NCBI GenBank assembly: GCA_036365455.1
Contig: JAWQUS010000010.1
Coordinates: forward strand, 13,648,501 to 13,712,500
Direction: 5' to 3'
Length of the DNA stretch: 64,000 bases
Source: Macrosoma leucophasiata
Lineage: Eukaryota > Arthropoda > Insecta > Lepidoptera > Hedylidae
This document shows positions 10,804 to 57,000 of the stretch, piece by piece. The notes beneath the pieces were generated by a model. The model was not told the origin of the DNA, did not search any database, and saw only the letters and a list, made by a program, of their open reading frames with translations. Within the stretch, counting starts at the first letter, position 1; each line of letters begins with the position of its first letter. The translations under genes and the position numbers were made by a program.

Positions 10804-10947
10804 AGATTTGGGAACGAATAAACTACGAACTTTGCACAAAAGCACATTTAAGGGAATGCGCTCATTAACAGAGTTGGACATGTTTGATAATCATGTGGAA
10901 TATTTGCCGTCGGGCATTTTTGATTCACTCGTCAATTTGCGAATATT
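10804..10947 (+). CDS. LRR gene exon a (two repeats)
   Basis: Acceptor 'ctttcag', then 1 nt, 47 codons and 2 nt before a GTGAGT donor: a 144-nt phase-2/phase-2 exon. Visible repeats include 'DLGTNKLRTLHKSTFKGM' and 'TELDMFDNHVEYLPSGIF'. Because it starts mid-repeat in phase 2, another coding exon must precede it. Confidence 0.85.
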
Positions 10948-27026: not shown

Positions 27027-27093
27027 ATGGGTCTTGGAAGTTTCGGCTTGTTTTTATTGATTGGAATTGGATTAACTCAGCACAAAAGTCATG
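27027..27093 (+). CDS. Cadherin gene exon 1, signal peptide
   Basis: 'aaaATGG' start context and 'MGLGSFGLFLLIGIGLTQ', a hydrophobic core of about 11 residues. GTAAGT donor in phase 1. Joins exon 2 as 'SHGCQIEG', with cleavage plausible near that Gly/Cys. Confidence 0.75.
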
Positions 27094-30000: not shown

Positions 30001-33000
30001 TACGAGTAGGTTTACGTGAAGTCTATCTTCCAGTTACGAGTGAATGAAAACGTTGTGATATAGATATTTACCATCAAAGTGAAATGTATTTGTTCGCCAC
30101 TTCCTGACAAAACAATTTCAATTCAAAACACAAAGGTTTTCTTCCGGAATTTGCAAATATTCCATATAGACTGAGAGCCCATCGACCGGTGAAGTCAGAT
30201 GCGGCAGAATCGAGACGAGTTAGTAAGTAACAAGAACACACATCTTTAAAAAACAAAGATGCATGTCAGTAATAGGCCTGGCTTAAAAACTGTTAAGTAA
30301 TGAATAGCGAGTATATGCGTGAATGCGTGAATTCAACGTCTTTTGGCAGATCTGTTACCTAAATGTCATCCGTATTTCAGGTATAAATTCGGTCACAATA
30401 ACAGCAGGTCTGAATGGAGGACCTTACATTGCTGTGTCGCTTGCAAACTCTCAGCTAAATATCACCACGACTGGTGCCTTCGAACAATACGAAGAAAATG
30501 AGACCGCCCAACAAATAGGAGTTACTGTTATTTTGAATTGCCTTGGTGGCAGCACTGTCAATTTTGTAAGTATACAACATTTCTTTATCATTTCTATACG
30601 AGAGAGAAGAAAGAAAGCAGACTATTACTGCAACGCGCTACGCGGTGGCACGACCCCCGCGTAGCGTCTTTAGTGCTTTTGGGGTCTTTTCCGTATTACG
30701 GCAATTTCCCAGTGTCACCCTCGGAGTTCGTTAATGTGCCCAGAGATGTCAATAAGCTCGCCACCTATGACATAGAACAAAACGTAACTGGCGGATGGCG
30801 TTGATGTTTGCATGTACTCGTATGTTCCAGTGCATATTTTGTCATTTACCTTCCCCTTTCGGGAATACGTCATTTTTAATACGTCGAAGTTACGTTATTT
30901 TACGCAGTGTACGTTATTAGGTTACGTTACGTACGTAGAAACGTTATTTTACATTGTGAGTAAAGTGATGGGACAATAGCCTGCATTGGTGCATTTACTA
31001 TAATGTTACCACAGTATAAGTACATACAGTAGTTTATCGCCTTTGAAGTTTTGCAATATGCCGCCTTCACCCATAAAAACGCAAAATCATTAAGGTTGTC
31101 ACGTTTTTGGTTTTTATTGACGTTGCTTGTAACGCGTCAGTATACGTTGAACATATATAAAAATCCTAAAAACATGACGCCTGTAATCCCCTAATGGGTA
31201 AGGAGAGGTAAATCGGATTCATGCATACATCCTCGATTCGCCGGTCAAGTTTTGGCCCATGCAACAGGCGGCGAGCCTGTTGACCAGACAAACCAGAAAA
31301 TAGAAAAATCTATCATACTATAAATATCTCAACCTATTAACAATTTACCAGTTTATCATCAATCTACCAGTATTCCAGTTGGGCGGTCTATCAGTACGCC
31401 AGAATTCTAACAATAATAATGTACCGATCCTAATATTCATCCACACCTTTTAACTCCGTCCAATATAATTCGAATATCAAATACATACAAACAAAAAAAA
31501 TTTTTAGAGTTTTCTTTAAAGATTTTTTCGTTTTGTGAAGTAAGTATTGTACATAAAGTGTAAAATATAACAGACATTATTATTAAATGAAAATTAGAAT
31601 AAAATATTAACAGTAAAGTTGACATCAAATTTTTCAATATCATCTTTCCAAAAACTTGTAAAATAAATTTTAAATCTCGCACCTCTTATCGCTAAGTCCC
31701 AAGTAGATGACAGTTTTTGTATGGGCTACTTGGTACCGCCCCCTCCGTCCCTCGCGTCGCACGCCCCGCACGATTGCTCTGACATTACACGTTCGTTGGA
31801 TGACTGTAGGTAATTAACACGTTCGTTTTCTTTAGACTGTGATGTTACTATCATTATTCGAATAATTTGACCGCCATTGTGCGGTTGACTGACTGAAATA
31901 GCGGAAAAATACGCCTCCACTAACGCGATATATAGCATGGACGCATACATGTGTTAAATGGAAAATAAGTTATTTGGAACTAATTAGAATTTTACTTTCA
32001 GATTGTGCAAGTAAATATAAAGGATACTAACAACAACGCTCCACAATTCAGGCCAAGGGACAATTATGAATTTACAATCGCACCACCTGTGCCGCCTGGG
32101 TTCCGTGTCACTGATTGTATAAACGATATTATGGTTAGAGATATAGATCTTACCACTAGCGCAATTATATTCAATATCGAGCCAAACGATTATTTTGAAA
32201 TAGAGTATGAAGACTCGACTACATCTAAAGAGTTTAATGCTATTTTGAGAACTACAACTTTTATTAGAAATATACCAGAACCTATTACGCTTTGGATAAC
32301 CGCTACAGTAAGTATTGTATAAATGTTATGATACTTCAGCGATTTTGATTCTTAAATCAATTGACGTAGTAACATAATTAATATATTTAATTATAATCTT
32401 CCCGTTAGCTATCATAACAAACGAAAAATATTATTATTATATTCATTCCAAAATCAGAACTTTTAAGTTCGCTGCATAACTATTTCTACTAGTTATAAAA
32501 ACATACGTAAAAAAAGTAGGTAAATTAAAACTGCATATTATTTTCTTTCTTGAATATGAAATTATGCAGGATGTCGATGACACTGGTGATCCGCCTCTTA
32601 CAACCAATGCAACGTTGCGAATATCTGGCGATACCCAATTCGCACTTCCAGATGATTTAATATTTTCCCGAACATTCTATTTCGCACAATACACTACAGA
32701 TAACGCAGTGGAATTGCAAGAAAATATATATTTGGTACAAGGATATCACGAGGAAGTTCAATTCAATCTAACAGGAGGTATGTGCAACACAGATTATTAA
32801 ATATTTACAAAAAAAATGTCAACAGGGTCGCCACCTGTTACATGGGCCAAAACGTAACTGGCGAATCGTGGGTGTTTGCATGTATGCTTGAATGCATGCA
32901 TTTACCTCTGCCTACCCCTTCGGGGATTACAGGCGTGAAGTTACGTTTTTTTTTTTTTTTTACAAAAAAAAATGTGTGATATTCTAAACTGCATGTAAAA

Positions 33001-36000
33001 TATGATATACTTAACTAGAATAAATTTCAAATTACCTACTCTACTTTTATTGCCATATTTATGTAGGTACTTCTTATTTCATAATATTCTAGTACATTTT
33101 ACATGTTAGAATAACCAAGGAACCTATAATAATATAATAATAATGGCAACCTATTATACGTCCCACTGCTGGGCACGAGTCTCTCCCCTTTTTGGGGGGT
33201 AGGCCTGGACCTTACTCCACCACGCTGCTCCAATGCGGATTGGTGGAGGTGGGTGGGTTAGTGGCCAACCCACTGTCGGATGTTTTCAAACCGCCCATAA
33301 GGCCTCCGACAAGGTTTAACGACTGCTATCCATCGATAGCAACCGGGACCGACGGCTCAACGTGCCCTCCGAAGCACGGAAACGCGCATTTAATTTGCCA
33401 CTAGCGGTCATCCATCACACTACCCGACCGCGCCCGTAGTGCTTAACCGAGCAGATCGCTTACGATCTACACCAGCCGCTGGGCTATGCGCGCAAGGAAC
33501 CTATGACGTACCTAAAATGATAAACATAAAATACGATAGGTCAAGTACAATTAATTAATTTTAACTAACCACCTTGTTACAGAATATGCCCTTTATTTTG
33601 AACTGGTAAGGAATGTGAATCAAGTATCAATTCGTGTTGCATCGCCTGTACCTACCGAAGTGTTTAGAGAGAGGGAAATATACCTAGCGGTGAGGGCCGA
33701 CAGGGAATTTATAAGTGGCACTTCTGCTACTGTAATATTGCAACTCCCTGAAGGTAAGGATTTCATTTCGTATCCCCAATTCTAGAAATATGTTCCGCGA
33801 AATCGAAATTCATGCTTGTAGAACGTAGGTAGATGTACGCTTTTACGATATAAAATATATATAAACTAATAGTGTTCGTTCAATGCTTTATTTACAGAAG
33901 AAAATTTGGAATTCGAGCAGGCGCTTTATGAGGGATTAATTGTGTATAATACACTACAACTATCACAATTAGTATTAAGCCAAGGATATGGCAATGAACC
34001 TCTTTCCATCAGTATTGTAAACGGTGAGTGAAATAAATATTGAATGAGTTAAAACTATTTTGTAACTATTTTAGTCCTAATATCCCATTTTCATCGCTTG
34101 TTCTCATTCCGGTAGGAATAAACTGTTAAATGGTAACTAGAAGTAGGTCTCCAAGAAACGTAAATACTTCTGAAAATGTATTTTCGTGTATAAAAATAAC
34201 TATGACTGAATATAAAACAAAAACATCTATCTCATTTTTTATTTTTAGAACACTCTTCGTTTTTCACGGCCAGTGTGCAAGACAGTGTGATAACACTGAC
34301 AATGGTGCCTCTAACTACAGCTATAATTGAAGAAAACAACGCTATAAATCTGAAAGTAATTGCTTCTACCAGCAATAGTGCAGCTTTTACTATAGTTGCT
34401 TTAGATATAATTAAAGACGATCATGTGACACCCGTGTTTGATCAAGTCTTATACAATGGAACGTATGATCCAATTATTGGGTTGGAGGTCGCCCAAATAA
34501 TAATGATACAAGGTTATGATGACACTGTTAGAGTTTTCTTAAGTGGAGGTAAGGTTGACTTTTACTTATGTACGTGTTTCTTTCCTTGGATAAGAAATAT
34601 GCTTCTTGTCTTTTTCTATATAAACATGTTTTCTATATATGTTACAAATAAGTCACATATATTTTTTACGAGTCAGTTAAGAAAATTGCCTCCGCAAAGA
34701 TTAAATTACGTCTGATATACATTTTGATAAGTCAGCTGGATAAAACGGCTTGGTGTAGCAAGTACCTCTTTCGTGAATTTTGGTGTATTGTTTTTTAAGT
34801 GATCTGTCACTTTAAATTAACAACGTATATTTCCAGAATATTCCACATACTTCAATATCGTTCAAGATGGAACTACGTTCAGTTTAAATACCCCAGGTTT
34901 ACCGCAGCAAATTCTTAGTGAACAGCATTTACTTCTTACAATACAAGCCACAAAACCAAGGACTGTGGGAGCAACTGCTGTGATACACATTGCATTACCT
35001 GCAGGTAAAAATAATGCACTAAATCATATTAAAATTAAATATAATTAAAATTAACATATGATTCCTGTGAATGATGAAAGACAAAATGTTTGTGATTTAT
35101 CTCATGATCATTATCAGAATTGATTAATGAGACAAAAATAATTACACAATCATTTCAAACGTAGTTAATTAGTATTATTATAGCACAAAAAATAGAATTA
35201 TAAAGGACGAAAACCACATGAATAAAAATGTTAAAAGGTTAGTATTGATAGATAATAGCACAACATTATTTATCTATATAAGTATAAATATTTTATAAGG
35301 TATCAACGGGTAAGTATTATTTTATTTTCACATTAAAGTTACAATGTTTTCTCAACACTGCAAAGATAATCTTACTTTTATATTTTTCGTTTATCTACCT
35401 TTACCAATCTCTATACTTTTCTTGAATGTCCGTATTTCAGCCAGAGAATTAAGTTTCGAAGCTATTACTTACAGTGGCACTTTAGAAAGTAATGTTTTAA
35501 GCCTTGAAAATATAGTCCTGACCGTGGGATATGACGATAATGTGATATTTGAGCTAACCGGCGGTAAGTTTGTTTTATAGCAGTGTAACATATCAACGTT
35601 TTTGCTTGCTTCAGTGTAACAGGAGTCGCTATAACATTACGCAATATATTTTTCTAAGTGTTTTTCTTTATGTTTTAGATTACGCAAATAGTTTCATTGT
35701 TTCGCATGTTAACAATGTAGTCTCCATTAATCTACTTTCGCAGTTGCCCGAGAATTCGATTCTAGAAAACTCTCACATTGCATTAATTCTTAGGGCTACT
35801 GGGTCGAACGCAGTACCAGCCACAGTTCCAATTTTTATTGAGATAATAAAAGATGATTTAAATACGCCTTTATTCGATAAATCTATTTATAACGGAACTT
35901 ATGATCAAGAGAGTGGATTAAATGTGGAAAATATTAGTATCACACAAGGATACGATGACACAGTGAATGTAACTTTAGAAGGAGGTATGTTACCCGCTTT

Positions 36001-39000
36001 ATAAGCTTTAATTGTTTTATATTGATTATTTAAATAAATAAATATGCTTACACTCACAGCTCCACTACCAAGTATAAACCTGTATTGTGGTGCCGTTACA
36101 CACACACACACATACAACACATATCCAAACACCCTGATACGAAACATATCCGTAATCGATACAAATATTTGTCCTGGTGTGGGAATCGAATCCGCGACCT
36201 TTGAATCAAGCGGTTACCTTACAGCGCTGGTCTAATCAAATCATCGATTTCATTTTTATTTAGGTCCTCGGATCACGTGCTGGACGTATTTGAATTTATT
36301 ATAAAGTATTTTACTTTTTCAATATGAAATAGATACGACATCATCAGAACATTAATCCTGTCCTATACTAGTATCTTAAGCATACTTATTTCGTGTTTTG
36401 TCTAACATATGTAACAGAAAGACGAAAATATTATATTTTTATTTAACGGCATATTTACTATTTTTCAGAATATGCTGGATATTTCGAGTTGAAGCAAGAA
36501 GACAATGTTTTTAATATTGCGGCGATTTCTGAACTTCCTTCTCAAGCTATTATTGTAGATAATATAATCCTTTTGATTGAAGCCACAAAGCCGTGGACAG
36601 TTGGAGCCAGAGCTGTAGTTAGTATAGCTTTGCCGGCAGGTAATTTCACACATTAATATGAGTAAACTGATATTGATGAAAAACCAGTGGAAGGTAGTAT
36701 TTTTGTTTAATTTTAAAGCAATATTACTTATAATAGGTATGTTATTCACCGATATCAGTTAAGTACCTATGAAAGCTGTAGATTATTAATTTAATTTTCT
36801 ACGAGAACTATTAAATATCATTAACGCCTTCTAACCCTCCAAATTAAATTTGATTTCTATTATATGTAAGCATTTTCTGTTCAACTTTTACATTTCATTA
36901 AATTAAAATAACTTTAACATAAAAAGCAAACTAAGATATTTTTTAAATTGATACAAAGAAGAGTTATCGAAGTTGATTGAGTACTTCGATATCCCTTAAC
37001 TTCGAGTAATTACTTATTGAAAGCTATTAGGTTTCAATGCAAAAATCTTCTGCATCATCTGACGATGAATCCAATCGCTAATGTGTAATCGTATACATTA
37101 CGATTATACAAAGCTGTTTTCTGTTATGACACTATCGCATCTCTTAAAGCTTCTCTTCATAATATTTATAATTTGACAGCAAATAATAAAAATCATCATC
37201 AAGTTCCATACCATTATATATTAAAAAATCACGTTTGTTGTATAGAAGCCCCAACAGACAGACGAATGGACGGACGAACAAACGAACAGATGGACGAACG
37301 AACGGATAGACAGTGGAGTCTTAGTAATAGGGGGTATAACTCTAAAATATTCTATTGAACATTATATTCTATTGTACTCGTACATAATAATATATTGTCA
37401 TTGTATATTGTGTCAATATGTTATTATGGATTCGTAAAATGTTATTTTGCACTATTTTGTCAAATCAACGCTTCTTCGTGATTTCCTTATTTATGAAATT
37501 CACGATGTTTTCATTCGCCGAAAAACAAACGCAACTATAAGCTGCTAATAAAACAATATTTTTGCTTCTACTTCCTGTATTGATAATCAATAATATACTT
37601 ATATTTATGTTTTTGATCCCATAAGGATATAAAAATATATCTACGTATATGCAACATGTAAAATAATATATTTAAACTAGCTGACCCGGCAAACTTCGTA
37701 TTCACTGACAATGAAATAATGTGTCAAAGGTTTCAAAGATAGATGTACGGAAAAATGAAATTGTGTTTTTTACTATTTCCCTTGAAATAGTAAAAAACAC
37801 AATTTTAAGCGCACATGGTCCAGCGACTGGTGTAGATCGTAAGCGATCTCTCGGTTAAGCACTACGGGCGCGGTCGGGTAGTGTGATGGATGACCGCTAG
37901 TGGCAAATTAAATGCGCGTTTCCGTGCTTCGGAGGGCACGTTAAGCCGTCCGTCCCGGTTGCTATCGATGGATAGCAGTCATTAAACCTTGTCGGAGGCC
38001 TTATGGAGCGGTTTGAAAACATCTGACAGCGTGTTGGCCACTCACCCACCCACCTCCACCAATCCGCATTGGAGCAGCGTGGTGGAGTAAGCTCCAGGCC
38101 TCCCCCCAAAAAAGGGGAGAGACTCGTGCCCAGCAGTGGGACGTATAATGGGTTGCCATTATTATACTATTTTCCTTCAATTTCTTCATATTTTCTTACC
38201 TTTTAAGCCTTCCCTGGACTTCCAAAAATCATTCAAAACCAAAATAAGCCAAATTGGTTTAGCCGTTCTCTAGTTTTAGTGCGACTAACGAACAGCAATT
38301 GATTTTTATATATATAGAAGATAATAAATAGGTGTAGGTTATAATAGAAAAGTTTTTATCACCATTTGTTTCAAATGCATTCGAAGTTCTCAAATCTAAT
38401 TGGTTATTTTTTGTAAATAATAATAATTACATGCAGTTACAATAGGTATAAAATTGCACGCAATCTTTGTTTCAGCAAGAGAACTAAAATTTGATAATCT
38501 TTCTTATAAGGGTTCTATAGATACGAGTAATAACACTTTAATTCTTGACACTATAATCTTAAGTGTTGGCTACGAAGAAGATGTGATATTTAATCTACTG
38601 GGAGGTAGGATAATAATTTTTTTTCTCTTAAATTTATCATTATCTAATAATTCTTCTTACAAAGTGTTACATAAGCTTATTTTGCTCTGAACATTTGTGA
38701 ATATTCTATTATTTTTCGCTTTTTTGACAGCGCACGGTGACGTGCGTGCACACTAGTCTAAGTAGTACTGTCGATCGATAAGGTAATTACTATCATATCT
38801 CACGTTTTCAAGTTCATTATTATTTTTAAAATTACTTGATCAAAAAAATGTTTTGTATGTTTTAATAATCCTACGATGTGATTTGCCTTCAGAAAATTAT
38901 TCTGCTGTGGGAAAACGAGTGTCGAAATTTCACCCTGTAATAAGGCATTATGATATTGAACTTGATAAATAGTAATATGACTCCTGTTTATTTTTGAGAT

Positions 39001-42000
39001 ATGAATCTACATACAATCAAAATTAAGTTATGTTCACGTACAAAATCGATATAATTTCATTGATTTTTGTATTTTTGGTCGCTGATAATTAAGTAACTAT
39101 AATAATTATTTATAATAATGAAATAACTTAATAGCAGTACAATTTTATTTCAGATTCCGCCGATTATTTTACCGTGTCTAATTTTGAAAATGAAGTAACC
39201 ATAGAATTAATAACACAGCTTCCCGAAAATGTTATTTTTGATAACAATGTCGTTATATTGACTCTTCTCGCTTCCGGAATAAATTCCGTACCGACTTCCA
39301 CCACTATTGCGCTTAGGATAATAAAAGAAGACATTAACACACCAGTATTCAGTCAAAATATTTACGAAGTAATATATATAAATTCATCCCAAATTGATAT
39401 ACCTCTCATTCAATTAATACAAGGATATGATAGCAGTGTCTCCTTTAATCTTCAAGGAGGTAATTATATAATTATATATCATCCATACGTTTATTTAACC
39501 CAATCCAAAGATATAAAACAAAAAAATAATAATCACTAATCTGTTCTGTTACAGACCATGCGCAATATTTTAACATTGTGAATGAAGAAAACATTGTTAC
39601 AATTGATATGGAAGCTACAATACCAGACGAATTGATTTTTGATGAAAAAGTGCTCTTATTTAATATTTTGGCTGTTAAACCAATGACCGTGGGTGCTTAC
39701 ACCACTGTATCTGTAAAATTCCCTCCAGGTAAATAAAGTAAATTATGTATATCCAGATCAACTCCTTTGGTCCTGCCTAACATTGATGTGGGTTTGTTTT
39801 AAGTAACTTTAAATTATCACAAGATAAAATACGAAGGTTTATTTAGTTCTGTGACCTAAAAATATTGTAAGTAGGTAGGTATGCACAAATGTTTATTGAT
39901 AAAATTAAATTAGCTTACAAAATGAAATACCTATTATTTTATATCGTATACGTCTGATAAAATAAATTAAAATGCGTGAAATTCATATTAACACAATGGT
40001 ACTCACCGACTAACCCGTCTTTAGTTCAGTTGGTACCCACCCTAGTACCCATAGGCGTTGTAATTTCAGCGTTACCATTTGATTTTGTATTTTTCTTTTT
40101 CAGTGCTCACTGAACCCGCAGTAATGACCTTCTCACAAAATACATACATAGGAACGTTAGAAAATGATGTATTATCAATTGACAATCTTGTAATAGAAAA
40201 TGGATATACACCAGGAACTGACTTCCTTATAACTGGCGGTATGTCCATAGTTGAGGAATTGAATTTCTAAATTAGTTATTGTGAAGAAGTTTGGCCATCC
40301 AAGTATTAATATACATATTATTTAAAAATTGTTCAACTAAGTTTTGTGGTGCAATAAACGTTATATAATAAATAATTATGTAACGTATCAATATACACAG
40401 CCAATTAATAAACGTCTTCTGTGCAGTCCCAGAAGACCTTTGATAAATATTCGATGGTAATTGTGAAGTAGTTCGGCCACGTTCCACGCAACATTATACC
40501 TATTATTTAAAAATGATCAAATTTTTGTGGTGCAGTACTGTATACGTTATGTAATAATTATAAAACGTATCAGTATACGCAACCAATCAACAAACTTCTT
40601 TTATACAGAAGAACCAAAGGTCTGCTGTGACTGTGCAGGAAGGACTTCTTGATACGATGAATTTATGTATAATTTTTTTTGGAATACTGAATATGTATGA
40701 GCGAGTTATTTTTGTCTTTACACCATAACTCATTAGAAATATCAATTTTTGTTCGTTCTCATATTATCTGTCTCTTGTCGTATTTAAAATTATCGATGGT
40801 GTGTTAATTTTGAAAGAGTTTGAAGTAACCAGTTGTGCATTTATCTATTTCTATATTCATTTTCACAGAGTTTGCTCATTACTTTATCCTCTCAAGTTCT
40901 GAAAATATAATTACAATTACTCTGGCAAATATAGCAAACATTGAAAGTCTGAGGAGTCACAAGTTCGTTTTGCTAGAAATAGAAGCACGGAGGAAAAGAG
41001 CCGTGTCAACGTCTACGACAGTCATAGTTGATGTAATAGAAGCTGGCATGGTAATATTACCTGTTTTCGATAGACCGTTTTATGGCGGTCTTTATAGTAA
41101 AGAATATGGTCTCCAATTTGATGAAGAGATTTCCTTAATCCTTGGATATGACGATACTGTCACCTTTGCTTTAGAAGGAGGTATATTTTCATTTGAATAA
41201 TTCATAAATATTTAAGTGACGCTGGGCAATGCTCATATTAAATTATTAATATTTATTTCAGAAAATGCAGAGTGGTTTACGGTTATTCCGGAAAATAATT
41301 CAGTTCGAGTTATAGAGAATGCCACCAACATAGTTCCTGATCATATATTTAATAGTAATAATCACATACTCTTTACTATAGAGGCGCAAAAACCCGCGAC
41401 CATAGGTGGACGAGCCGCTATATCCATCGAATTTGTCAAAGGTTTGATATAAACACATTTCGCACAATCTCTATCTTATATACCATATAAATAAAAAATA
41501 CTGGACAACGGCTGGACCGATTTGGTTAATTTTAGTTCTTAAATATTGGTAAAATTCCATGGAACGTTTTAAAGGTGAAAATTATGAAGAAATTGTGAGG
41601 AAAATAGTAAAAACCACAATTTTATTTCCTCGTACATAAAATTTGTACGTGTCATTTTCTTGACACATTATTAAACATAGGGCTGCGCAAAGTTCGCTGG
41701 ATCGGCTAAGTTTCTCTTCTCTATAAAGATATATAAAATTCTCGTGTCACAAAGTTAGTAACTATACTCCACCGTAACGGCTGGAGCGATTCTCATGAAA
41801 TTTTGTGTGCCTATTGGGTAGGTATTAGAATCGGCCAACATCTATTTTTCATATCCCTAAGTGATAAGGTGATTCTCACAAAATATTTTATTTTCGATTT
41901 TTTGGATATTTTTTTCATTTAATATCTCTAAAGCAATACGAAGTTCGTCAGGGCAGCTAGTATAATAATAATAATATTGGCAACGCTGGATACGTCCCAC

Positions 42001-45000
42001 TTCTGGGCACTAGTCTCTGCCCTTCTTGAGAGGAGGCCTGGAGCTTACTCCACTACGGGTTGGTGGAGATAAGGGTTAGTGGCCAACCCGTTGTCGGATG
42101 TTTTCAAACCGCCAATAAGACCTCCGACAAGGTTTTAACGACTGCTATCTATCGATAGCAACCGGGACCGACGGCGTAACGTGCTCTTCGAAGCACGGGA
42201 ACGCGCATTTTAATTTGCCACTAGCGGTCACCCACATATCACACACCCAACCGCGCCCGTATCGCTTTACCGAATAGATCGCTTCCGATCTACACCAGCC
42301 GCGGGGCCATGCGCGCTTCTGGGCAGCTAGAAATATATAATAATTGTGAATAAATGATAATAATATTCAAAATATACGAATAATTATTGACAGTTCAGGA
42401 CCAAAAAACAGCACAACTTAAAGATTGCAGTTACTTCACTATCACATATAATATAATTATATTTTTTCGTCACATAATAACACATGTCATGTGAGTCAAA
42501 CTATATACAAACTTATAAGAAAAATAGAGAGAAAAAATTGACTTCAGGCGGAAGTCCAACTCCGACCGCGACCTCTGCGACTCCAGCGTAGACGTTCGAC
42601 TAATTTTATTAACAAACAAAGTTACACTTGACTGTCAAATTATAGCTTGGGAAGGCGGACTTATTTTTATTTAAAAATCTGTACTACTGTTGGGTACAGT
42701 ACAGTCACAGTCAGGCGACAGATATTATTATTAGGTACAGTCAGATAATTCAGGAGAACCCGATTATCTGTTCAATTGTATTGTAATACTAGCTGTTTCC
42801 CGCGGCTTCGCCCGCGTGTATGTCTATTAAGAAATTATTTAAATTTTACGATCCCGTGGACATGTTCTAATCAAGTTTCCCGTCGCGTACCTACCTCCTT
42901 GTGGAGTACTGATAGCATTATTCACGTCTATAACTTTAAAAATCTCTATTTAATTAGAGCCTGTTCAGTAATGACATAACACCTTGAAAATTTCGGAAAG
43001 TCCCATACCAATTTCTCTATCCATTTTTTAGGGGTTTGGGGGAAGATTTTTCGTGCATTATAAACTGACAAAATACCCGTACAAACTATCGCCTCCTCTC
43101 TTGGGTTGAGCGCACAATTCCAAACAAAATAAAATCTTAAGAACGCTCAACCTAGTTTTCTTTAGTATGAATTTTTGTATAGCGGTAATAAAGTGCAAAT
43201 TGACTCTTTGACGTTAGGAACACACCTAGATTGCTTAGACAACAGTGAGTGCTTTTAATTTAATACGAACTTTATATAATAGCAGTAAAGCTTCAAATGA
43301 CTACGTTTTAGTTAGGAGTTCAAGGAACATTTAAAAAAAGAATTTGCCAAGTTGGTCCAGGCATTGTTGAGTTCTGCGCTAACCAACACATTTTGCGATT
43401 CATTTTTATATTATAGACTAAGCTGGCCCGGCAAACTTCGTATCGCTTTAAAAAATAATAAGAATAAAGATAAAAAATACACTACAGTTTTAGCGAAACT
43501 AACAAACAGCAATTGATTTTTGAAAATTGTCTATCCTGTCCAGTTTCGGTAATAATTTAATGACATTTATTAAAAATGAAATATGTACGTCGTAATGACG
43601 GGCTTTGACATTTGAATTTATGAAATTATTGATTTTATTTTACGAATTATCAAAAAATACGAATTTGGCGGATATGTTCTCGACTCAGAACAATTATTTT
43701 TTTACGATCTTTAATTGTAAATAGGTTTCGATCGAGTCTACCGTAGATCTGTGGCAGAAAATATGACATGTAATGTCTGTGCTTAGGTTCATAATGGCGG
43801 ATGTGTAAAATTGAATATTAACGTTGTGCATTTTTAACCACTAATGCCACCAATACTACCACTACCATTACCACCATCGTCACCACCACCACCACCAACG
43901 CCATCAACGCCACCACCAATACCAACATCACTAAACATCTACGCCACTAACGCCTCCAAAACTACCAACAACACCACCAACGTCACCAACGCCACTAATG
44001 CCTCCATCGAGACTAAAAACCACCACCACCAGTGTCACCATCAACACCTACGCCACCAACGACACCAATGACACCAATGACACCAATTACACAAATAACA
44101 CCCACGACACCAACGACACTAACGACACCAACGACACCAACGACACCAACGACACCAACGAAACCAACGAGACCAACGACACCAACGACACCAACGACAC
44201 CAACGACACCAACGACACCAACGACACCAACGACACCAACGACACCAACGACACCAACGACACCAACGACACCAACGACACCAACGACACCAACGCCATC
44301 AACGCCACCAACGCCACCACCACCACCACCATCAACACCACCAACACCACCAATGCCATCAACACCACTTACGCCACCAATTTTGTTATTTCTTGTATTT
44401 AATTTAATCGTTGCAGCGGTAACAGAAATACATAATTTGTGAAAATTTTAGCTTTCTAGCTATCACTGTTTATGAGATACAGCTTGGTGGACGGACGGAC
44501 AGACAGCGGAGGATTAGTAATCCGTATGGCCCGTTTTTACCTTTTAGGTAGGAAATCCCCTAAAAGATAGAACTAAGGTACAGAATATCTAAAAAATATG
44601 TAGTATAAATGTTAAGTGAAACTTACCACAATATATTAATGAAAGATCGGCAGATCAAATAAGCCGTTTCTGAAATAAGCGTGCACAAACACACAGACAA
44701 ACAGACATTTTTCCGGGATAAAAAGTACCCAGTGTTGTGCGCCAAAGGTTAAAGTATAATCATACCAAGTTTCATTGTAATCGGACCGGTACTTTTTATG
44801 TGATGCTTGAACAAACAGACAGACAGACAGACGGACAAAAATTTTTCTAATCACATATTTGGGTTCGGTATCGATCTAGTAACATCCCCTGGTATTTATT
44901 TTTTCAATATTTTTAATGTACATAATTTACACTTCTACAGTTTTATTATAAGTATAGATTATGTCATGCATTTTATAACATTTATTTCAGAATCCAATGA

Positions 45001-48000
45001 TTTATTGCTTCTTGGTTTTGAAAATATAAGCTACATGGGATCAATCAATCAAACGGTTCTTGAATTGGAACCCATCACTCTCAATGAGGGTTATACCGCA
45101 AACGTGATATTCTCTTTGCACGGAGGTATAGTTTTAAATACTTACAAACTTACAAACATACACTTTACTTTTTTATAACGAAATATGCCTGATGCAAGTG
45201 AATGTTCCAGATCTAGCATCTTACTTCACTTGGTCGTCAGAGGGACCTGTCGTCGCCATAACGATGCAAGGGTCCATACCTGAAGACTCCATACCCAGAA
45301 ACAGAATAATAGTATTGGAACTACGGGCCTCTGCTCCAGAATCTCTGCCGGCATTTGCCACCATAATCTTGAATGTTCTGCGTTCAGAAATATCGCCGAT
45401 GGAAATCCCGCTAGTTTTCTCGCAAACATATTACACAGGACAATACACAGAAGCCAGTGGTCTCGTCTTTGAACAGAATATTTCTCTAGCAACCGGTTTC
45501 GACGATAGCATTGAATTCGCTCTTGAAGGAGGTCAGTACATATTCAACTGATGGACACTAAGATTTATTATAATATCTTTTATGTGAGAATACGAGGGAT
45601 TCATATTTATACTTGACTTATATTTCAGACAGCTCCATTTGGTTCGACTTATCGGTGTCTGGAAACTCGGTATCTCTCGTTCTCACCGATCCTATACCCG
45701 CTGCAGTTCTAGCAAATAACCAAAAACTCTTATTCGTGGTCAGAGCCCGTCGGTCTGACACTCTCGATGCAAGTTCGACAGTCGTGATTTCGTTGACAGA
45801 AGGTATGTTTTTATAGCATATTTACTTTCATGATCCAAACTCTTGCTGTCGTGGTGAGGACCTCTTAAAAATATTGCGACGTTTTTGTTTCAGATCTCAC
45901 TAATGCAGCGCTTCTTGGTTTCGAGCATATAAGTTACTCCGGCTCGATTAATGACACTGTTCTTGAATTGACACCCATCACTCTCAACGAGGGTTATACC
46001 GCAAACGTGGTGTTCTCGTTGCACGGAGGTACAGTTTTAAGTACCTATTTACAAATATTACAACTGTTACTTTTTCACAATATGCTAAACATGCCTCATG
46101 CAAATTATTATTCCAGATCTAGCATCTTACTTCACTTGGTCGTCAGAGGGACCTGTCGTCGCCATAACGATGCAAGGGTCCATACCTGAAGACTCCATAC
46201 CCAGAAACAGAATAATAGTATTGGAACTACGGGCCTCTGCTCCAGAATCTCTGCCGGCATTTGCCACCATAATCTTGAATGTTCTGCGTTCAGAAATATC
46301 GCCGATGGAAACCCCGCTAGTTTTCTCGCAAACATATTACACAGGACAATACACAGAAGCCAGTGGTCTCGTCTTTGAACAGAATATTTCTCTAGCAACC
46401 GGTTTCGACGATAGCATTGAATTCGCTCTTGAAGGAGGTCAGTACATATTCAACTGATGGACACTAAGATTTATTGTAATATCTTTTATGTGAGAATACG
46501 AGGGATTCATATTTATACTTGACTTATATTTCAGACAGCTCCATTTGGTTCGACTTATCGGTGTCTGGCAACTCCGTATCTCTCGTTCTCACCGATCCTA
46601 TACCCGCTGCAGTTCTAGCAAATAACCAAAAACTCTTATTCGTGGTCAGAGCCCGTCGGTCTGACACTCTCGATGCAAGTTCGACAGTCGTGATTTCGTT
46701 GACAGAAGGTATGTTTTTATAGCATATTTACTTTCATGATCCAAACTCTTGCTGTCGTGGTGATGATCTCTTAAAAATATTGCGACGTTTTTGTTTCAGA
46801 TCTCACTAATGCAGCGCTTCTTGGTTTCGAGCATATAAGTTACTCCGGCTCGATTAATGACACTGTTCTTGAATTGGCACCCATCACTCTCAACGAGGGT
46901 TATACCGCAAACGTGGTGTTCTCGTTGCACGGAGGTACAGTTTTAAGTACCTATTTACAAATATTACAACTGTTACTTTTTCACAATATGCTAAACATGC
47001 CTCATGCAAATTATTATTCCAGATCTAGCATCTTACTTCACTTGGTCGTCAGAGGGACCTGTCGTCGCCATAACGATGCAAGGGTCCATACCTGAAGACT
47101 CCATACCCAGAAACAGAATAATAGTATTGGAACTACGGGCCTCTGCTCCAGAATCTCTGCCGGCATTTGCCACCATAATCTTGAATGTTCTGCGTTCAGA
47201 AATATCGCCGATGGAAACCCCGCTAGTTTTCTCGCAAACATATTACACAGGACAATACACAGAAGCCAGTGGTCTCGTCTTTGAACAGAATATTTCTCTA
47301 GCAACCGGTTTCGACGATAGCATTGAATTCGCTCTTGAAGGAGGTCAGTACATATTCAACTGATGGACACTAAGATTTATTGTAATATCTTTTATGTGAG
47401 AATACGAGGGATTCATATTTATACTTGACTTATATTTCAGACAGCTCCATTTGGTTCGACTTATCGGTGTCTGGAAACTCGGTATCTCTCGTTCTCACCG
47501 ATCCTATACCCGCTGCAGTTCTAGCAAATAACCAAAAACTCTTATTCGTGGTCAGAGCCCGTCGGTCTGACACTCTCGATGCAAGTTCGACAGTCGTGAT
47601 TTCGTTGACAGAAGGTATGTTTTTATAGCATATTTACTTTCATGATCCAAACTCTTGCTGTCGTGGTGATGATCTCTTAAAAATATTGCGACGTTTTTGT
47701 TTCAGATCTCACTAATGCAGCGCTTCTTGGTTTCGAGCATATAAGTTACTCCGGCTCGATTAATGACACTGTTCTTGAATTGACACCCATCACTCTCAAC
47801 GAGGGTTATACCGCAAACGTGGTGTTCTCGTTGCATGGAGGTACAATTTTAAGTACCTATTTACAAATATTACAACTGTTACTTTTTCACAATATGCTAA
47901 ACATGCCTCATGCAAATTATTATTCCAGATCTAGCATCTTACTTCACTTGGTCGTCAGAGGGACCGGTCGTCGCCATAACGATGCAAGGGTCCATACCTG

Positions 48001-51000
48001 AAGACTCCATACCCAGAAACAGAATAATAGTATTGGAACTACGGGCCTCTGCTCCAGAATCTCTGCCGGCATTTGCCACCATAATCTTGAATGTTTTGCG
48101 TTCAGAAATATCGCCGATGGAAACCCCGCTAGTTTTCTCGCAAACATATTACACAGGACAATACACAGAAGCCAGTGGTCTCGTCTTTGAACAGAATATT
48201 TCTCTAGCAACCGGTTTCGACGATAGCATTGAATTCGCTCTTGAAGGAGGTCAGTACATATTCAACTGATGGACACTAAGATTTATTATAATATCTTTTA
48301 TGTGAGAATATGAGGGATTCATATTTATACTTGACTTATATTTCAGACAGCTCCATTTGGTTCGACTTATCGGTGTCTGGAAACTCGGTATCTCTCGTTC
48401 TCACCGATCCTATACCCGCTGCAGTTCTAGCAAATAACCAAAAACTCTTATTCGTGGTCAGAGCCCGTCGGTCTGACACTCTCGATGCAAGTTCGACAGT
48501 CGTGATTTCGTTGACAGAAGGTATGTTTTTATAGCATATTTACTTTCATGATCCAACTCTTGCTGTCGTGGTGATGATCTCTTAAAAATATTGCGACGTT
48601 TTTGTTTCAGATCTCACTAATGCAGCGCTTCTTGGTTTCGAGCATATAAGTTACTCCGGCTCGATTAATGACACTGTTCTTGAATTGACACCCATCACTC
48701 TCAACGAGGGTTATACCGCAAACGTGGTGTTCTCGTTGCACGGAGGTACAGTTTTAAGTACCTATTTACAAATATTACAACTGTTACTTTTTCACAATAT
48801 GCTAAACATGCCTCATGCAAATTATTATTCCAGATCTAGCATCTTACTTCACTTGGTCGTCAGAGGGACCTGTCGTCGCCATAACGATGCAAGGGTCCAT
48901 ACCTGAAGACTCCATACCCAGAAACAGAATAATAGTATTGGAACTACGGGCCTCTGCTCCAGAATCTCTGCCGGCATTTGCCACCATAATCTTGAATGTT
49001 CTGCGTTCAGAAATATCGCCGATGGAAACCCCGCTAGTTTTCTCGCAAACATATTACACAGGACAATACACAGAAGCCAGTGGTCTCGTCTTTGAACAGA
49101 ATATTTCTCTAGCAACCGGTTTCGACGATAGCATTGAATTCGCTCTTGAAGGAGGTCAGTACATATTCAACTGATGGACACTAAGATTTATTATAATATC
49201 TTTTATGTGAGAATATGAGGGATTCATATTTATACTTGACTTATATTTCAGACAGCTCCATTTGGTTCGACTTATCGGTGTCTGGAAACTCGGTATCTCT
49301 CGTTCTCACCGATCCTATACCCGCTGCAGTTCTAGCAAATAACCAAAAACTCTTATTCGTGGTCAGAGCCCGTCGGTCTGACACTCTCGATGCAAGTTCG
49401 ACAGTCGTGATTTCGTTGACAGAAGGTATGTTTTTATAGCATATTTACTTTCATGATCCAAACTCTTGCTGTCGTGGTGATGATCTCTTAAAAATATTGC
49501 GACGTTTTTGTTTCAGATCTCACTAATGCAGCGCTTCTTGGTTTCGAGCATATAAGTTACTCCGGCTCGATTAATGACACTGTTCTTGAATTGACACCCA
49601 TCACTCTCAACGAGGGTTATACCGCAAACGTGGTGTTCTCGTTGCACGGAGGTACAGTTTTAAGTACCTATTTACAAATATTACAACTGTTACTTTTTCA
49701 CAATATGCTAAACATGCCTCATGCAAATTATTATTCCAGATCTAGCATCTTACTTCACTTGGTCGTCAGAGGGACCTGTCGTCGCCATAACGATGCAAGG
49801 GTCCATACCTGAAGACTCCATACCCAGAAACAGAATAATAGTATTGGAACTACGGGCCTCTGCTCCAGAATCTCTGCCGGCATTTGCCACCATAATCTTG
49901 AATGTTCTGCGTTCAGAAATATCGCCGATGGAAACCCCGCTAGTTTTCTCGCAAACATATTACACAGGACAATACACAGAAGCCAGTGGTCTCGTCTTTG
50001 AACAGAATATTTCTCTAGCAACCGGTTTCGACGATAGCATTGAATTCGCTCTTGAAGGAGGTCAGTACATATTCAACTGATGGACACTAAGATTTATTGT
50101 AATATCTTTTATGTGAGAATACGAGGGATTCATATTTATACTTGACTTATATTTCAGACAGCTCCATTTGGTTCGACTTATCGGTGTCTGGCAACTCCGT
50201 ATCTCTCGTTCTCACCGATCCTATACCCGCTGCAGTTCTAGCAAATAACCAAAAACTCTTATTCGTGGTCAGAGCCCGTCGGTCTGACACTCTCGATGCA
50301 AGTTCGACAGTCGTGATTTCGTTGACAGAAGGTATGTTTTTATAGCATATTTACTTTCATGATCCAACTCTTGCTGTCGTGGTGATGATCTCTTAAAAAT
50401 ATTGCGACGTTTTTGTTTCAGATCTCACTAATGCAGCGCTTCTTGGTTTCGAGCATATAAGTTACTCCGGCTCGATTAATGACACTGTTCTTGAATTGAC
50501 ACCCATCACTCTCAACGAGGGTTATACCGCAAACGTGGTGTTCTCGTTGCACGGAGGTACAGTTTTAAGTACCTATTTACAAATATTACAACTGTTACTT
50601 TTTCACAATATGCTAAACATGCCTCATGCAAATTATTATTCCAGATCTAGCATCTTACTTCACTTGGTCGTCAGAGGGACCTGTCGTCGCCATAACGATG
50701 CAAGGGTCCATACCTGAAGACTCCATACCCAGAAACAGAATAATAGTATTGGAACTACGGGCCTCTGCTCCAGAATCTCTGCCGGCATTTGCCACCATAA
50801 TCTTGAATGTTCTGCGTTCAGAAATATCGCCGATGGAAACCCCGCTAGTTTTCTCGCAAACATATTACACAGGACAATACACAGAAGCCAGTGGTCTCGT
50901 CTTTGAACAGAATATTTCTCTAGCAACCGGTTTCGACGATAGCATTGAATTCGCTCTTGAAGGAGGTCAGTACATATTCAACTGATGGACACTAAGATTT

Positions 51001-54000
51001 ATTATAATATCTTTTATGTGAGAATATGAGGGATTCATATTTATACTTGACTTATATTTCAGACAGCTCCATTTGGTTCGACTTATCGGTGTCTGGCAAC
51101 TCCGTATCTCTCGTTCTCACCGATCCTATACCCGCTGCAGTTCTAGCAAATAACCAAAAACTCTTATTCGTGGTCAGAGCCCGTCGGTCTGACACTCTCG
51201 ATGCAAGTTCGACAGTCGTGATTTCGTTGACAGAAGGTATGTTTTTATAGCATATTTACTTTCATGATCCAAACTCTTGCTGTCGTGGTGATGATCTCTT
51301 AAAAATATTGCGACGTTTTTGTTTCAGATCTCACTAATGCAGCGCTTCTTGGTTTCGAGCATATAAGTTACTCCGGCTCGATTAATGACACTGTTCTTGA
51401 ATTGACACCCATCACTCTCAACGAGGGTTATACCGCAAACGTGGTGTTCTCGTTGCACGGAGGTACAGTTTTAAGTACCTATTTACAAATATTACAACTG
51501 TTACTTTTTCACAATATGCTAAACATGCCTCATGCAAATTATTATTCCAGATCTAGCATCTTACTTCACTTGGTCGTCAGAGGGACCTGTCGTCGCCATA
51601 ACGATGCAAGGGTCCATACCTGAAGACTCCATACCCAGAAACAGAATAATAGTATTGGAACTACGGGCCTCTGCTCCAGAATCTCTGCCGGCATTTGCCA
51701 CCATAATCTTGAATGTTCTGCGTTCAGAAATATCGCCGATGGAAACCCCGCTAGTTTTCTCGCAAACATATTACACAGGACAATACACAGAAGCCAGTGG
51801 TCTCGTCTTTGAACAGAATATTTCTCTAGCAACCGGTTTCGACGATAGCATTGAATTCGCTCTTGAAGGAGGTCAGTACATATTCAACTGATGGACACTA
51901 AGATTTATTGTAATATCTTTTATGTGAGAATACGAGGGATTCATATTTATACTTGACTTATATTTCAGACAGCTCCATTTGGTTCGACTTATCGGTGTCT
52001 GGCAACTCCGTATCTCTCGTTCTCACCGATCCTATACCCGCTGCAGTTCTAGCAAATAACCAAAAACTCTTATTCGTGGTCAGAGCCCGTCGATCTGACA
52101 CTCTCGATGCAAGTTCGACAGTCGTGATTTCGTTGACAGAAGGTATGTTTTTATAGCATATTTACTTTCATGATCCAAACTCTTGCTGTCGTGGTGATGA
52201 TCTCTTAAAAATATTGCGACGTTTTTGTTTCAGATCTCACTAATGCAGCGCTTCTTGGTTTCGAGCACATAAGTTACTCCGGCTCGATTAATGACACTGT
52301 TCTTGAATTGGCACCCATCACTCTCAACGAGGGTTATACCGCAAACGTGGTGTTCTCGTTGCACGGAGGTACAGTTTTAAGTACCTATTTATAAATATTA
52401 CAACTGTTACTTTTTCACAATATGCTAAACATGCCTCATGCAAATTATTATTCCAGATCTAGCATCTTACTTCACTTGGTCGTCAGAGGGACCTGTCGTC
52501 GCCATAACGATGCAAGGGTCCATACCTGAAGACTCCATACCCAGAAACAGAATAATAGTATTGGAACTACGGGCCTCTGCTCCAGAATCTCTGCCGGCAT
52601 TTGCCACCATAATCTTGAATGTTCTGCGTTCAGAAATATCGCCGATGGAAACCCCGCTAGTTTTCTCGCAAACATATTACACAGGACAATACACAGAAGC
52701 CAGTGGTCTCGTCTTTGAACAGAATATTTCTCTAGCAACCGGTTTCGACGATAGCATTGAATTTGCTCTTGAAGGCGGTCAGTACATATTCAACTGATGG
52801 ACACTAAGATTTATAATAATATATTTTATGATGCGAATACGAGGGATTCATATTTATGCTTGACTTATATTTCAGACAGCTCCATTTGGTTCGACTTATC
52901 GGTGTCTGGCAACTCCGTATCTCTCGTTCTCACCGATCCTATACCCGCTGCAGTTCTAGCAAATAACCAAAAACTCTTATTCGTGGTCAGAGCCCGTCGG
53001 TCTGACACTGTCGATGCAAGTTCGACAATCGTGATTTCATTGACGGAAGGTATGTTTTTTTAGCATATTAAATATAGGTACGGACTATTTGTATGGGAAA
53101 ATAAAATTGTTCTTTTTACTATTTCTCTTACAATTTTTTCATATTTTTAATCTTTCCTTGGCTTCCAAAAAATATTCAAATCCAAAATTAGCCAAATTCG
53201 TCCAGCCGTTCTCGAGTTTCAGCGAGACTTACGAACAGTAATAAAAACAACAATCAAAAGTGACAACAATCCGTGTTCACTTCGTCTGGTTAAACGTGAA
53301 CTTACGTCTACGCGGTTTTATTTATACATCTGAATTAAACCTTATTTTTCTAACAGCAAAGTCTTATATTGTCCAGCTTCATAGAGGAAGTTTTTTTATA
53401 AAAGAAGAAGAATTATATATCTAAAGATAAACCGAAAAATAAACCAAGAGGAAAGTCTAGGCATAATTTTATTTTGAATTCAATCAATGTTACATTGTTA
53501 AACAATCGCTTAAGGTGGTAGTGACTGATTAAGGAACACTTACGTACACAAATTCTCAATTTTTCGAGAATGTACATAATATTATGTATTCAATATTTAC
53601 GAACCGACTGTTTCAATGGTTTCTGTCCCCGGTTTCTTTGACTCTCACCAGAGAATATGTAATAGTACTACGTATAGAATGGACACTTCGACGTCCCGCC
53701 CGATTTCCCTCCTCATCCAACCTCCTTCTCTCTTATGGGCGACGTTTGGTATTCTCTACGTGCTACGCACACAGGTGCACGTGTGTGTGTAGCACGTAGA
53801 GCACGTCACTGATTGATGGCTGTGTAATAGAGACCAAATTAAGCGTTTGTATAGAATTTTGGCGGAGTGTCCGAGGGGTGCTCTCACCGAGTTTAAAATA
53901 TTCGGACCAAGCAAAAAAATCCCTTTCCTCTACAATAGTAATTTCAATGTATGTAGATATGTGTGTTTGTTATTTTTTACTGAACATTCGTTTAACTTAT

Positions 54001-57000
54001 GGGTGTTGAATAGTGCTTGACTGTTCGGTGCAATAGTATAATAACAATTCATTAACAAAATTGCTTAAAATTACTTATTAAATAAACAGTGAAATTGAAT
54101 ATCCAGAACCTTAAATAAATGAATATCTTTATCAAGCTGGCTGTAGTGGCCATATCACCATCGTAGATAACCACTATCAGTTATTTTATCACCTTTTAAA
54201 GATCTCAATTGCTGTCTATTATATTTATTTTTAACACAGTAGTATTGTTGTTGTAGCCTTCTCTACGAAGGGCTTCAGTTATTTAAACGCACATTTTCAT
54301 TGCAGCTTAGAACGTTTTTTAACTTGTGGTTTTCGTCCTATCTTTTGATTTGTAGTGTTTAGGGTTTAAGTTAGAATAATAAGTAGGAAATACGCCATTT
54401 TGTTCAACCCATTAATGCGATATTTTATATTTTCAGGTACAGATATTATTATATTTTTTGAAAGAGTACTGTATAATGGGAATTTGCGATCCGGGCTTGT
54501 ATTTCATGAAGCCATAAGAATTACTGGACCGACTGTCCCAAATATTAGAATAGTGGGAGGTATGTTGCTTCGTATTTCGCAATATAATAATTATTGATAA
54601 AAAGTTGTCGTTTCAAAAAACTCGTTGAGGCATTTTTCTGCAAAACGTAGATCGAGAAATACCTAATAGGTAGGTATAGCAACTGCAATTTTAAAAAGTC
54701 ATCTTTATTGAAAATGTAAGAATGTAATTTTAAATCAAAATAAAGACCTCATTCTATTAAGTTCATATTGATACTTCGACATCGAAAAACATTTTTTTTC
54801 GAATTTCTTTTCTAAATTTTTTTTGTTTATAAAATAATTCTTAGTGGCTTATAAAAAGTAGAAATAAATTTGTCATTAAGTAAATTTACCAATTAAAATT
54901 CAAACGCACAAAATATTTCCTTACAGAATACAGCGAGTTGTTCGAAGCAAATTCTTCTGACGGTTCGGTTACTGTGCAAACGGTGAATCCAGCGATTATA
55001 CCGCAGAATGTGACACATATCGCCGTAGAACTACATGCGGACAATGCAAGAGCAGTACTCCTACTTGATATCATTGATTCAGGTAAGCTATCATAATAGG
55101 TTGGGGAAAAAGTCTTTTCGCATTATAGTATGTATGAACTTGTAATAAAATCTCTTTGGCTGTAGTTTTTGTATCTGGCCGGTTTTGGTATCATTGAAAG
55201 TTAAAATTTTTAAGAACATAATTCCAAATTCAAATTAGCCAAATGTGTGATTTTCATTTGTTTTTCGTACTGTCAAGATGAGTGAAACTAATGAAGAAAT
55301 TCGATACATTTTAAAATTTTACTACACAAAAGGTAAAAATGCAACGCAAGCGGCGAAAAAAATTTGCGATGTTTATGGACCTAGTGCAGTGTCTGTGAGA
55401 GTAGCACAAATTTGGTTTAAGCGTTTTCAATCAGGAAATTTTGATGTCAAAGATGCACATCGCTCTGGTCGCCCTATTACGCATTTTCGAAAAAGTAGAG
55501 CAAGATCGACATATCAGTAGTTACGACGTAGCTGAAGAACTGAGAATTGATCACAAAACAGTTTTGGCGCATTTTAAAAAAGCTGGGTACAAAAAAAAGC
55601 TCGATATTTGGGTACCTCACGAGCTCACTGAAAGAAACCTAATGAACCGTGTACTCATTTATGATTCTTTATTACGACGTAATGAAACCGAATCATTTTT
55701 GAAGAAGCTGATAACTGGTGATGAAAAGTGGATCACGTACGACAAGAACGTGCGAAAAAGGTCGTGGTCAAAGGCCTGTCAGGCTTCACAGACTGTGGCG
55801 AAACCCGGGTTAACTCGCATTAAGGTGATGTTGTGTGTATGGTGGGATTGGAATGGCATTATTCATTATGAGCTATTTCCACCAGGCAGGACTATCGATT
55901 CTGAACTCTACTGCGAACAACTGATGAGATTAAAGCAAGAAGTTGAGAGAAAGCGGCCGGAATTGATCAACAGAAGGGGTGTGGTGTTTCATCATGATAA
56001 CGCTAGACCTCACACATCTATAGCCACTCAGCAAAAATTAAGAGAGTTTGGCTGGGAGGTGTTAATGCTTCCGCCGTATAGTCCTGACCTTGCACCTTCA
56101 GATTTCCACCTGTTTCAGTCTCTTCAGAATTCTTTATGCAATGTTAGGTTAACATCACGAGAGGACTGCCAAATTCACTGGTGGTAGAGCTCCAGTGACG
56201 GAGCTCGCGGGCGTAGGCACCACCGCATTACCTAATATACTTGCCGCTAAATGGTAGTGTTCAACACTATCGTGTTCCGGTCAGGTGGTAATGTACGGCC
56301 CTGTAATTTCCGGCACAGAGGCATAAGACCTTAGGCCTCTGGAGTGGTAACGCATCTGCATTTTGACCTTGGTCTTTGTGTGGGTGTCTATAGGCTGCAG
56401 TCATCACTTAACATCAATGCGAACTGCATGCTTGTTTACCACTTCCATTACATAAAAAAAAAAAAAAAAAATCCACTTGTCGCGGTATTTTGATGAGAAG
56501 TCCCAAAATTTTTATAGCAATGGGATCATGTCCCTACCTACAAGATGGCAAAAGGTTATCGAACAAAATGGTATATACATGCTTTAGTTAAATTTAAATA
56601 AACTATATTAAAAAATGTTTTGAATTATCTTAAGAAATGCGAAGAAACTTTTTCCCCAACCTTATACATACAATATGTTAGGTACCTAAACGAATTACGT
56701 ACTTTTAAAGTTTTATTTTCAGTTATCTATTCCGATATCAAAAATAGATTCTAATTTTTCAATAATACCGCGTCGTAATTATGTGCGCATAAATTATTAC
56801 GTTAAAAATAATAAAATACTCTACCCCTTCCTGGACATACTCGTATTAGAAGAAGAAAGTCGTTTGTTTGGCGCTTAGCCGAGAATTTTCTTATTTAATG
56901 TAAATTCAGCCTCAGACCTCATATTTTTAAGTTCTGCCGACATTAACATTATAATATTGATCATTCCATTTCCATTTAAATTCCATCCTAAAATGTTATC

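Follow-up and report, generated by a model that had tools for sequence, protein, structure and literature searches.

A gene of the lepidopteran Macrosoma leucophasiata (Hedylidae) contains nine tandem copies of a three-exon unit, located at positions 44991-53049 of the 64,000-nucleotide stretch of contig JAWQUS010000010.1 analysed here (forward-strand positions 13,648,501 to 13,712,500; hereafter the window). We propose that this array is probably the actively turning-over part of a single-pass surface protein of the cadherin superfamily, which is homogenised by unequal exchange between its units and likely acts as an extensible stalk.

Results

The nine tandem three-exon copies, which a sequence-only reading of the window had reported, are indeed found at 44991-53049. 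Every copy consists of exons of 135, 321 and 174 nt (exons A, B and C), and the units are distributed as follows:

44991-45802, + strand: array unit 1 (exons 44991-45125, 45211-45531 and 45629-45802; exon A and intron 1 diverged)
45894-46708, + strand: array unit 2
46800-47614, + strand: array unit 3
47706-48520, + strand: array unit 4
48611-49425, + strand: array unit 5
49517-50331, + strand: array unit 6
50422-51236, + strand: array unit 7
51328-52142, + strand: array unit 8
52234-53049, + strand: array unit 9 (intron 2 and 3' end slightly diverged)

The eight measurable start-to-start lengths are 903, 906, 906, 905, 906, 905, 906 and 906 nt; the 905/906-bp unit described earlier therefore applies to seven of them. 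AG/GT borders and phase-1 junctions were found for 27 of 27 array exons and the joined frame of 5670 nt contains 1890 codons and zero stops, in agreement with the 27 in-frame exons and 1890 added residues of the sequence-only reading. The description of the copies as near-identical is accurate for copies 2-8, whose pairwise identity is 0.990-1.000 with introns included and gaps left out, but not for the outer edges of the array. In copy 1, exon A and intron 1 are diverged and high similarity begins at approximately exon B (45211); this copy causes nearly all of the variable columns in exon A (30 of 135) and intron 1 (33 of 89). In copy 9, intron 2 and the 3' end are slightly diverged and similarity fades about 20 nt past exon C. 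Copies 2-8 differ at 11 variable sites per 907 columns, and because the seven exonic and four intronic sites are roughly proportional, the introns are about as conserved as the exons, as had been claimed. The mean difference between copies is 0.44%; if a butterfly rate of about 2.9e-9 mutations per site per generation is assumed, this would correspond very roughly to 0.8 million generations between copies. Chance or a simple low-complexity repeat as the origin of the array was ruled out by the 99% identity over 8 kb together with the exon structure. The intron directly before the array contains a minisatellite of 9/18/27-nt units (CACCAACGA-like) at 43881-44380.

Searches with two long queries (1310 and 1251 aa) yielded 29 (E<=1) and 52 (E<=0.001) proteins, corresponding to 67 distinct ones. 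The named relatives all bear lepidopteran names and are annotated as 'uncharacterized protein', 'protocadherin Fat 1-like' or 'Cadherin domain-containing'. The gene family is a lepidopteran, unnamed family within the cadherin superfamily. Unnamed proteins such as Amyelois LOC106133343, Helicoverpa zea LOC124630244 and Plodia LOC128670467 are orthologues or close paralogues over the queried parts and are built from the same modules, many of them with homogeneous arrays of ~210-residue units, the sequence and number of which vary by species. Among the matches listed in openly licensed PMC full texts, we found no paper on the family or the array, which does not show that none is in print, and a search of these full texts for six locus numbers of the family also found no paper. 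One further relative is a 2026-aa JGI metagenome protein (P0067) with 23% identity, a signal-peptide-like start and RRKSVQF in its tail. Judged by its sequence, the family may reach beyond Lepidoptera.

A single strong hydrophobic segment is present near the C-terminus in 12 of 12 orthologues inspected, most of which also have a signal-peptide-like start. In five between-family pairs, the transmembrane segment and tail are 57-64% identical, compared to 39-44% for the first 900 residues. The tail motif KS(V/M)VTFNENVEKI is kept in 11 of the 12 printed C-termini (for example in orthologues P0003, P0030 and P0033), and the RRKSVQF in the tail of the distant protein P0067 is similar to it. The part of the window protein preceding the array reaches a best identity of 44% over 1034 columns among 25 other rows, and Parnassius shows 49% identity to it over a shorter match of 577 aa. 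In a tree calculated from the first part of the protein (26 rows, Choristoneura left out, root for drawing only), the window protein groups with Amyelois and Plodia (85/90), and these together with Ostrinia (99/99). A separate group (85/97) unites Achroia, Epargyreus, Trichoplusia ni and Chrysodeixis; it conflicts with the species relationships and suggests that paralogues are present.

To compare the arrays, we used 27 representatives, namely the window protein and 26 of the 67 relatives (25 species, with two models for Cydia pomonella); other isoforms as well as Vanessa, Parnassius, Iphiclides and Scirpophaga, among others, were left out. All evidence from outside the window consists of database gene models. 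Full modules were kept when more than 85% of the model was covered with more than 80 bits (286 in total), and homogeneous units were counted as modules at least 85% identical to another module in the same protein. At least two homogeneous modules are present in 16 of the 27 proteins and at least six in 11 of the 27, that is, in the window protein and 10 of the 26 others. The counts are 13 for Amyelois, 12 each for H. zea and H. armigera, 11 for Manduca, 10 for Plodia, nine for the window, eight each for Anticarsia and Epargyreus, seven for Achroia and six each for T. ni and Chrysodeixis. The sequence-only reading knew of no described cadherin gene with such an array, but the array is not unique, given the 6-13 near-identical ~210-residue units in 10 of 26 other lepidopteran models. 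Arrays are found at the same place in the gene in five families. Homogeneous ~210-residue units are absent from 11 of the 27 proteins (Plutella, Hyposmocoma, Papilio xuthus, Battus, Danaus, Nymphalis, Maniola, Bicyclus, Pararge, Ostrinia and Chilo). In several nymphalid models, those of Nymphalis and Maniola among them, the corresponding region is occupied by arrays with units of 93 or 95 residues, and Scirpophaga shows a periodicity of 209 residues that extends over about two copies (0.76). The amplified proteins that were printed have approximately two to five full modules before the array and a distinct terminal module after it, which is incomplete in the window. Protein length differs considerably between species models, in line with the rapid length change that had been suggested. 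The H. armigera models alone range from 2320 to 4608 aa; the H. armigera model used here is irregular and 397 aa longer than that of H. zea, though both have 12 units by the count used. Database isoforms also differ by whole units in T. ni (2742/2533 aa, a difference of 209), H. armigera (2531/2320 aa, a difference of 211) and Maniola jurtina (1885, 1980, 2075 and 2170 aa, 95 each).

The relationships among the 286 modules of the 27 proteins change along the protein. For module positions 1-5, the nearest relative lies in another protein in 27, 26, 25, 22 and 19 of 27 cases, and the nearest module elsewhere shares the ordinal position in 26, 23, 21, 16 and 13 of 27. From position 6 onward, the nearest relative lies within the same protein for 98 of 151 modules and in another protein for 53 of 151, and the nearest module elsewhere shares the position in just 33 of 151. 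For the six amplified proteins printed, an array module shares 96-100% identity with its closest counterpart in that protein and 54-72% with the closest one from a different genus; between the close species H. zea and H. armigera, array modules are 97-99% identical, as expected. With array members picked by hand, the arrays were monophyletic in nine of nine proteins tested, including the window, with support values between 0.78 (H. zea) and 1.0; the Manduca and H. armigera arrays were not part of this test. For 14 selected proteins, no array module falls inside the groups that modules at positions 1, 2 and 3 span, and the groups for positions 4 and 5 extend across the entire tree. Units are hence alike within species and divergent between species, with flanking modules that are orthologous by position, the pattern expected under concerted evolution. 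Within copies 2-8, five informative sites give eight four-gamete violations; these sites amount to about three independent ones, as they include two completely linked pairs and one of the five is an indel. Either the units exchanged short stretches or sites mutated repeatedly.

Synonymous changes account for six of the seven variable codons in copies 2-8 (P=0.0038, or 0.011 when the linked pair is counted once) and for 11 of 14 in copies 2-9 (P=0.00025). These P values are binomial, with codons treated as independent, and are based on a neutral synonymous share of 0.300, obtained by enumerating every possible single change, weighting transitions and excluding stops. All nine copies together have 33 variable codons, 14 of them residue-changing, and copy 1 alone accounts for 19 and 11 of these, respectively. 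The coding units of the array are under purifying selection.

A family profile built from 15 rows gave 101 matches at E<=1 among solved structures, with a best value of 7.3e-17; the best 60 of the 101 are all cadherins, including clustered protocadherins named MCG133388. The matches cover the membrane-near end, the N-terminal end and one stretch of the repeat region. The domain encoded at 32002-32307 matches protocadherin EC2 (second extracellular cadherin, EC) folds, and most models carry DTNNN/DINDN linkers close to the N-terminal end and to the membrane-near end. By profile similarity and by this fold match, the protein as a whole is a member of the cadherin superfamily. With Pfam, Cadherin was found only below the cut-off in four of four family proteins scanned; the 1100 aa preceding the array in the window matched no family, Cadherin included, nor did two single exons. 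Among 17 modules, Cadherin was matched by one (2.4e-4), and two unrelated families were matched by three and two modules at ~0.01. A profile of the array modules gave 11 matches up to E=10, of which nine are cadherins and two are MtrB. A protein search with one module returned zero matches at E<=1 among 1035 candidates, which were limited to proteins of similar length, and a PDB search with one module gave just two matches with E near 1, to an unrelated enzyme. Foldseek searches with both models gave zero matches at E<=0.001. LDRE was found in 0 of 286 modules and DxNDN in one of 286; the repeat modules thus do not have the motifs of calcium-binding cadherins.

The gene extends from a likely signal-peptide exon (27027) to past the end of the window, outside of which its 3' part lies. 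Our model comprises 48 exons in the window and 3138 aa without the last exon. Four older A-B-C modules, which do not appear in the sequence-only reading, were found upstream of the array (33898-41441) with profiles from repeat halves; they are 28-42% identical at the protein level to one another and to the array. The cadherin linker DTNNNAPQF is encoded ahead of them, and exons 27027-27093 and 29774-29878 join in frame. Outside the array, the gene is made up of the following parts:

27027-27093, + strand: likely exon 1 with start codon, signal peptide (MGLGSFGLFLLIGIGLTQHKSHG...) and ATG/GTAAGT donor, chosen among six listings by its phase fit to exon 2 and likeness to orthologue N-termini
29774-29878, + strand: exon 2, start of the mature protein (CQIEGVFNW...), resembling orthologue N-termini
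30381-30565, + strand: exon 3, first cadherin-type domain region
32002-32307, + strand: exon 4, near-complete EC domain with the linker DTNNNAPQF
32570-33753, + strand: exons 32570-32777 and 33583-33753, end of the exon-4 EC domain and first repeat-type domain
33898-35004, + strand: older module 1 (exons 33898-34023, 34249-34548 and 34837-35004)
35441-36639, + strand: older module 2 (exons 35441-35563, 35679-35984 and 36469-36639)
38476-39728, + strand: older module 3 (exons 38476-38604, 39154-39459 and 39555-39728)
40104-41441, + strand: older module 4 (exons 40104-40238, 40869-41180 and 41262-41441)
54443-55082, + strand: terminal-module exons 54443-54559 and 54927-55082, with weak profile matches (0.089 and 0.011); in most printed rows, terminal modules from other species are matched according to position
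62685-62828, + strand: likely next exon (SPVLPSVTFSSSSYV...) after a 7.6-kb intron, fitting the family consensus PxLPxVxFxSxSY

For the exon at 62685, Pfam returned two matches, both weak and unrelated. The 7.6-kb intron, which follows the terminal-module exons, holds a mariner-like transposase at 55281-56187 on the + strand (Pfam Transposase_1, 1.6e-23, in 55405-56184), and by eye, a further part of this element can be seen upstream in another frame.

Upstream on the + strand, exons of a leucine-rich repeat (LRR) gene at 7765-20925 match the N-terminal ~470 residues of P0037, a Choristoneura model, with 50-94% identity in seven main pieces. P0037 fuses LRR and cadherin-like parts, and the neighbourhood therefore seems to be conserved. 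From these identities, the LRR gene seems to evolve more slowly than the cadherin-like gene. A 400-aa open frame at 13507-14709 (+) matches Pfam Exo_endo_phos_2 (3.8e-8; endonuclease-reverse transcriptase) and is probably a non-long terminal repeat (non-LTR) element, and the open frame at 28413-28889 (+), without a Pfam match, resembles the end of a non-LTR reverse transcriptase. Tandem arrays at 23378-23819 and 60156-60476 have nearly the same 126/128-nt unit 37 kb apart and are possibly part of a mobile element family. A tRNA-Phe-like gene at 25060-25135 (+, anticodon read as aaa) is possibly a tRNA-derived repeat.

Discussion

We propose that the unit of turnover is a two-domain module encoded by three phase-1 exons. 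As the exon lengths are multiples of three and the junctions are in phase 1, the gain or loss of a unit keeps the frame open. Neighbouring units, together with their introns, would undergo unequal crossing over and gene conversion, and these would homogenise and resize the array, so that it becomes uniform within a species and diverges between species, while its outer edges would escape exchange and retain older sequence. The uniform centre with older edges can be explained in this way, since unequal exchange is expected to leave such a pattern. Taking all species into account, we infer that the arrays were shaped by concerted evolution that acted recurrently, through unequal crossing over or gene conversion. 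Selection would preserve intact coding units. The orthologues point to a single-pass topology. The array most likely forms an extensible stalk of cadherin-like domains without calcium motifs, which would set the distance between the conserved domains and the membrane anchor with its tail. In known cadherins, linkers without calcium are flexible, and an EC domain measures ~4.5 nm; the 18 domains of the array would add some 80 nm.

Several points weigh against this proposal. Recurrent fresh expansion from one or two units fits the data as well as long-lived, homogenised arrays do, and the length of the array may be neutral. In addition, assigning the array modules proper to the cadherins has weak sequence support, as the window array module has no match in Pfam and the best match of the array-module profile, Cadherin-23, has an E-value of 0.0021. 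The earlier assignment to the cadherins is thus correct for the gene as a whole, which is placed in the superfamily by its structure-profile matches and the EC2 fold match at 32002-32307, but less secure for the array modules.

An account that differs from our proposal mainly with regard to length is a neutral, satellite-like expansion, in which recombination changes a length that has no function and the open frame is merely tolerated. The introns are as uniform as the exons, the number of units varies widely and the Papilio and Battus models, for example, lack a homogeneous array, all of which would be expected under such a process. However, nonsynonymous differences are depressed and arrays recur in the same gene stretch in five families; both observations speak against it, without thereby showing selection on length itself, and we regard this account as possible but rather unlikely. 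That an assembler multiplied fewer units appears very improbable to us. Arrays of this kind are difficult to assemble, and array collapse or expansion is one possible reason for the wide range of the H. armigera model lengths. Nevertheless, copies 2-8 are all mutually different, though the closest pairs (2/6 and 2/8) differ by one site each, there is not a single N in the window, and 6-13 homogeneous units are also present in the database models of ten other species.

The units could also exist to provide isoforms with differing numbers of modules, as the database isoforms of T. ni, H. armigera and Maniola jurtina would suggest. These isoforms are database models, however, and ambiguous mapping of reads to identical exons could create them. 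We consider such a role for splicing unlikely. We would give equally little weight to a recognition arms race, in which turnover of the array would alter a binding surface facing a gamete ligand, a parasite or an ingested protein, by analogy with VERL of abalone. This idea could draw on the first 900 residues, which at 39-44% are less conserved than the upstream LRR gene pieces with their 50-94% identity to the tortricid model, and on a similar plan in VERL, in which repeat types 1, 2 and 3-22 evolve independently and repeats 3-22 are homogenised (PMC2704960). On the other hand, amino-acid change is rare within the array studied here. Overall, turnover of a coding stalk by unequal exchange remains the explanation we favour.

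Several known systems share features with the array. Long cadherins such as Cadherin-23, protocadherins and Fat also consist of tandem EC-type domains; unlike these, the array modules in the window are near-identical and without calcium-binding motifs. VERL is an egg-coat glycoprotein, and its fold, like that of LPA, is unrelated to the protein described here. VERL is reported to be a large extracellular protein with 22 tandem repeats, the first of which are independent and the remainder homogenised by concerted evolution (PMC2704960), an order that resembles that of the lepidopteran family. A study on the LPA kringle IV-2 (KIV-2) coding variable number tandem repeat gives 5.6-kb units with 1-40 per allele (PMC11462820); likewise, this is a protein-coding tandem array of kilobase-scale units, and the copy number in M. 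leucophasiata is known from one sequence. Both the plan seen in VERL and coding arrays of kilobase units are thus already known, and the array of this lepidopteran family would be a new instance. The H. zea gene cad-86C, described as a lepidopteran cadherin-family gene with little identity to known Bacillus thuringiensis (Bt) receptor cadherins (PMC7202007), appears to be another gene, as judged from this description and not from a direct comparison of sequences; identity is not supported, as none of the four Helicoverpa proteins of the family that were checked contains the DNTAT segment reported for cad-86C.

Taken together, protein length in this family can change quickly while the ends of the protein stay recognisable. 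One might further speculate that the length of the array is polymorphic and fast-evolving within populations and that the ectodomain is rewritten by concerted evolution as in VERL, which could set species- or strain-specific recognition; we consider this unlikely, though conceivable. With a frame-neutral multi-exon unit that has been repeatedly amplified in one gene stretch across Lepidoptera, the family provides a clean natural system for the evolution of protein length. Several of the species are pests or laboratory insects with assembled genomes, in which the length of the array, its expression and its effect are directly measurable.

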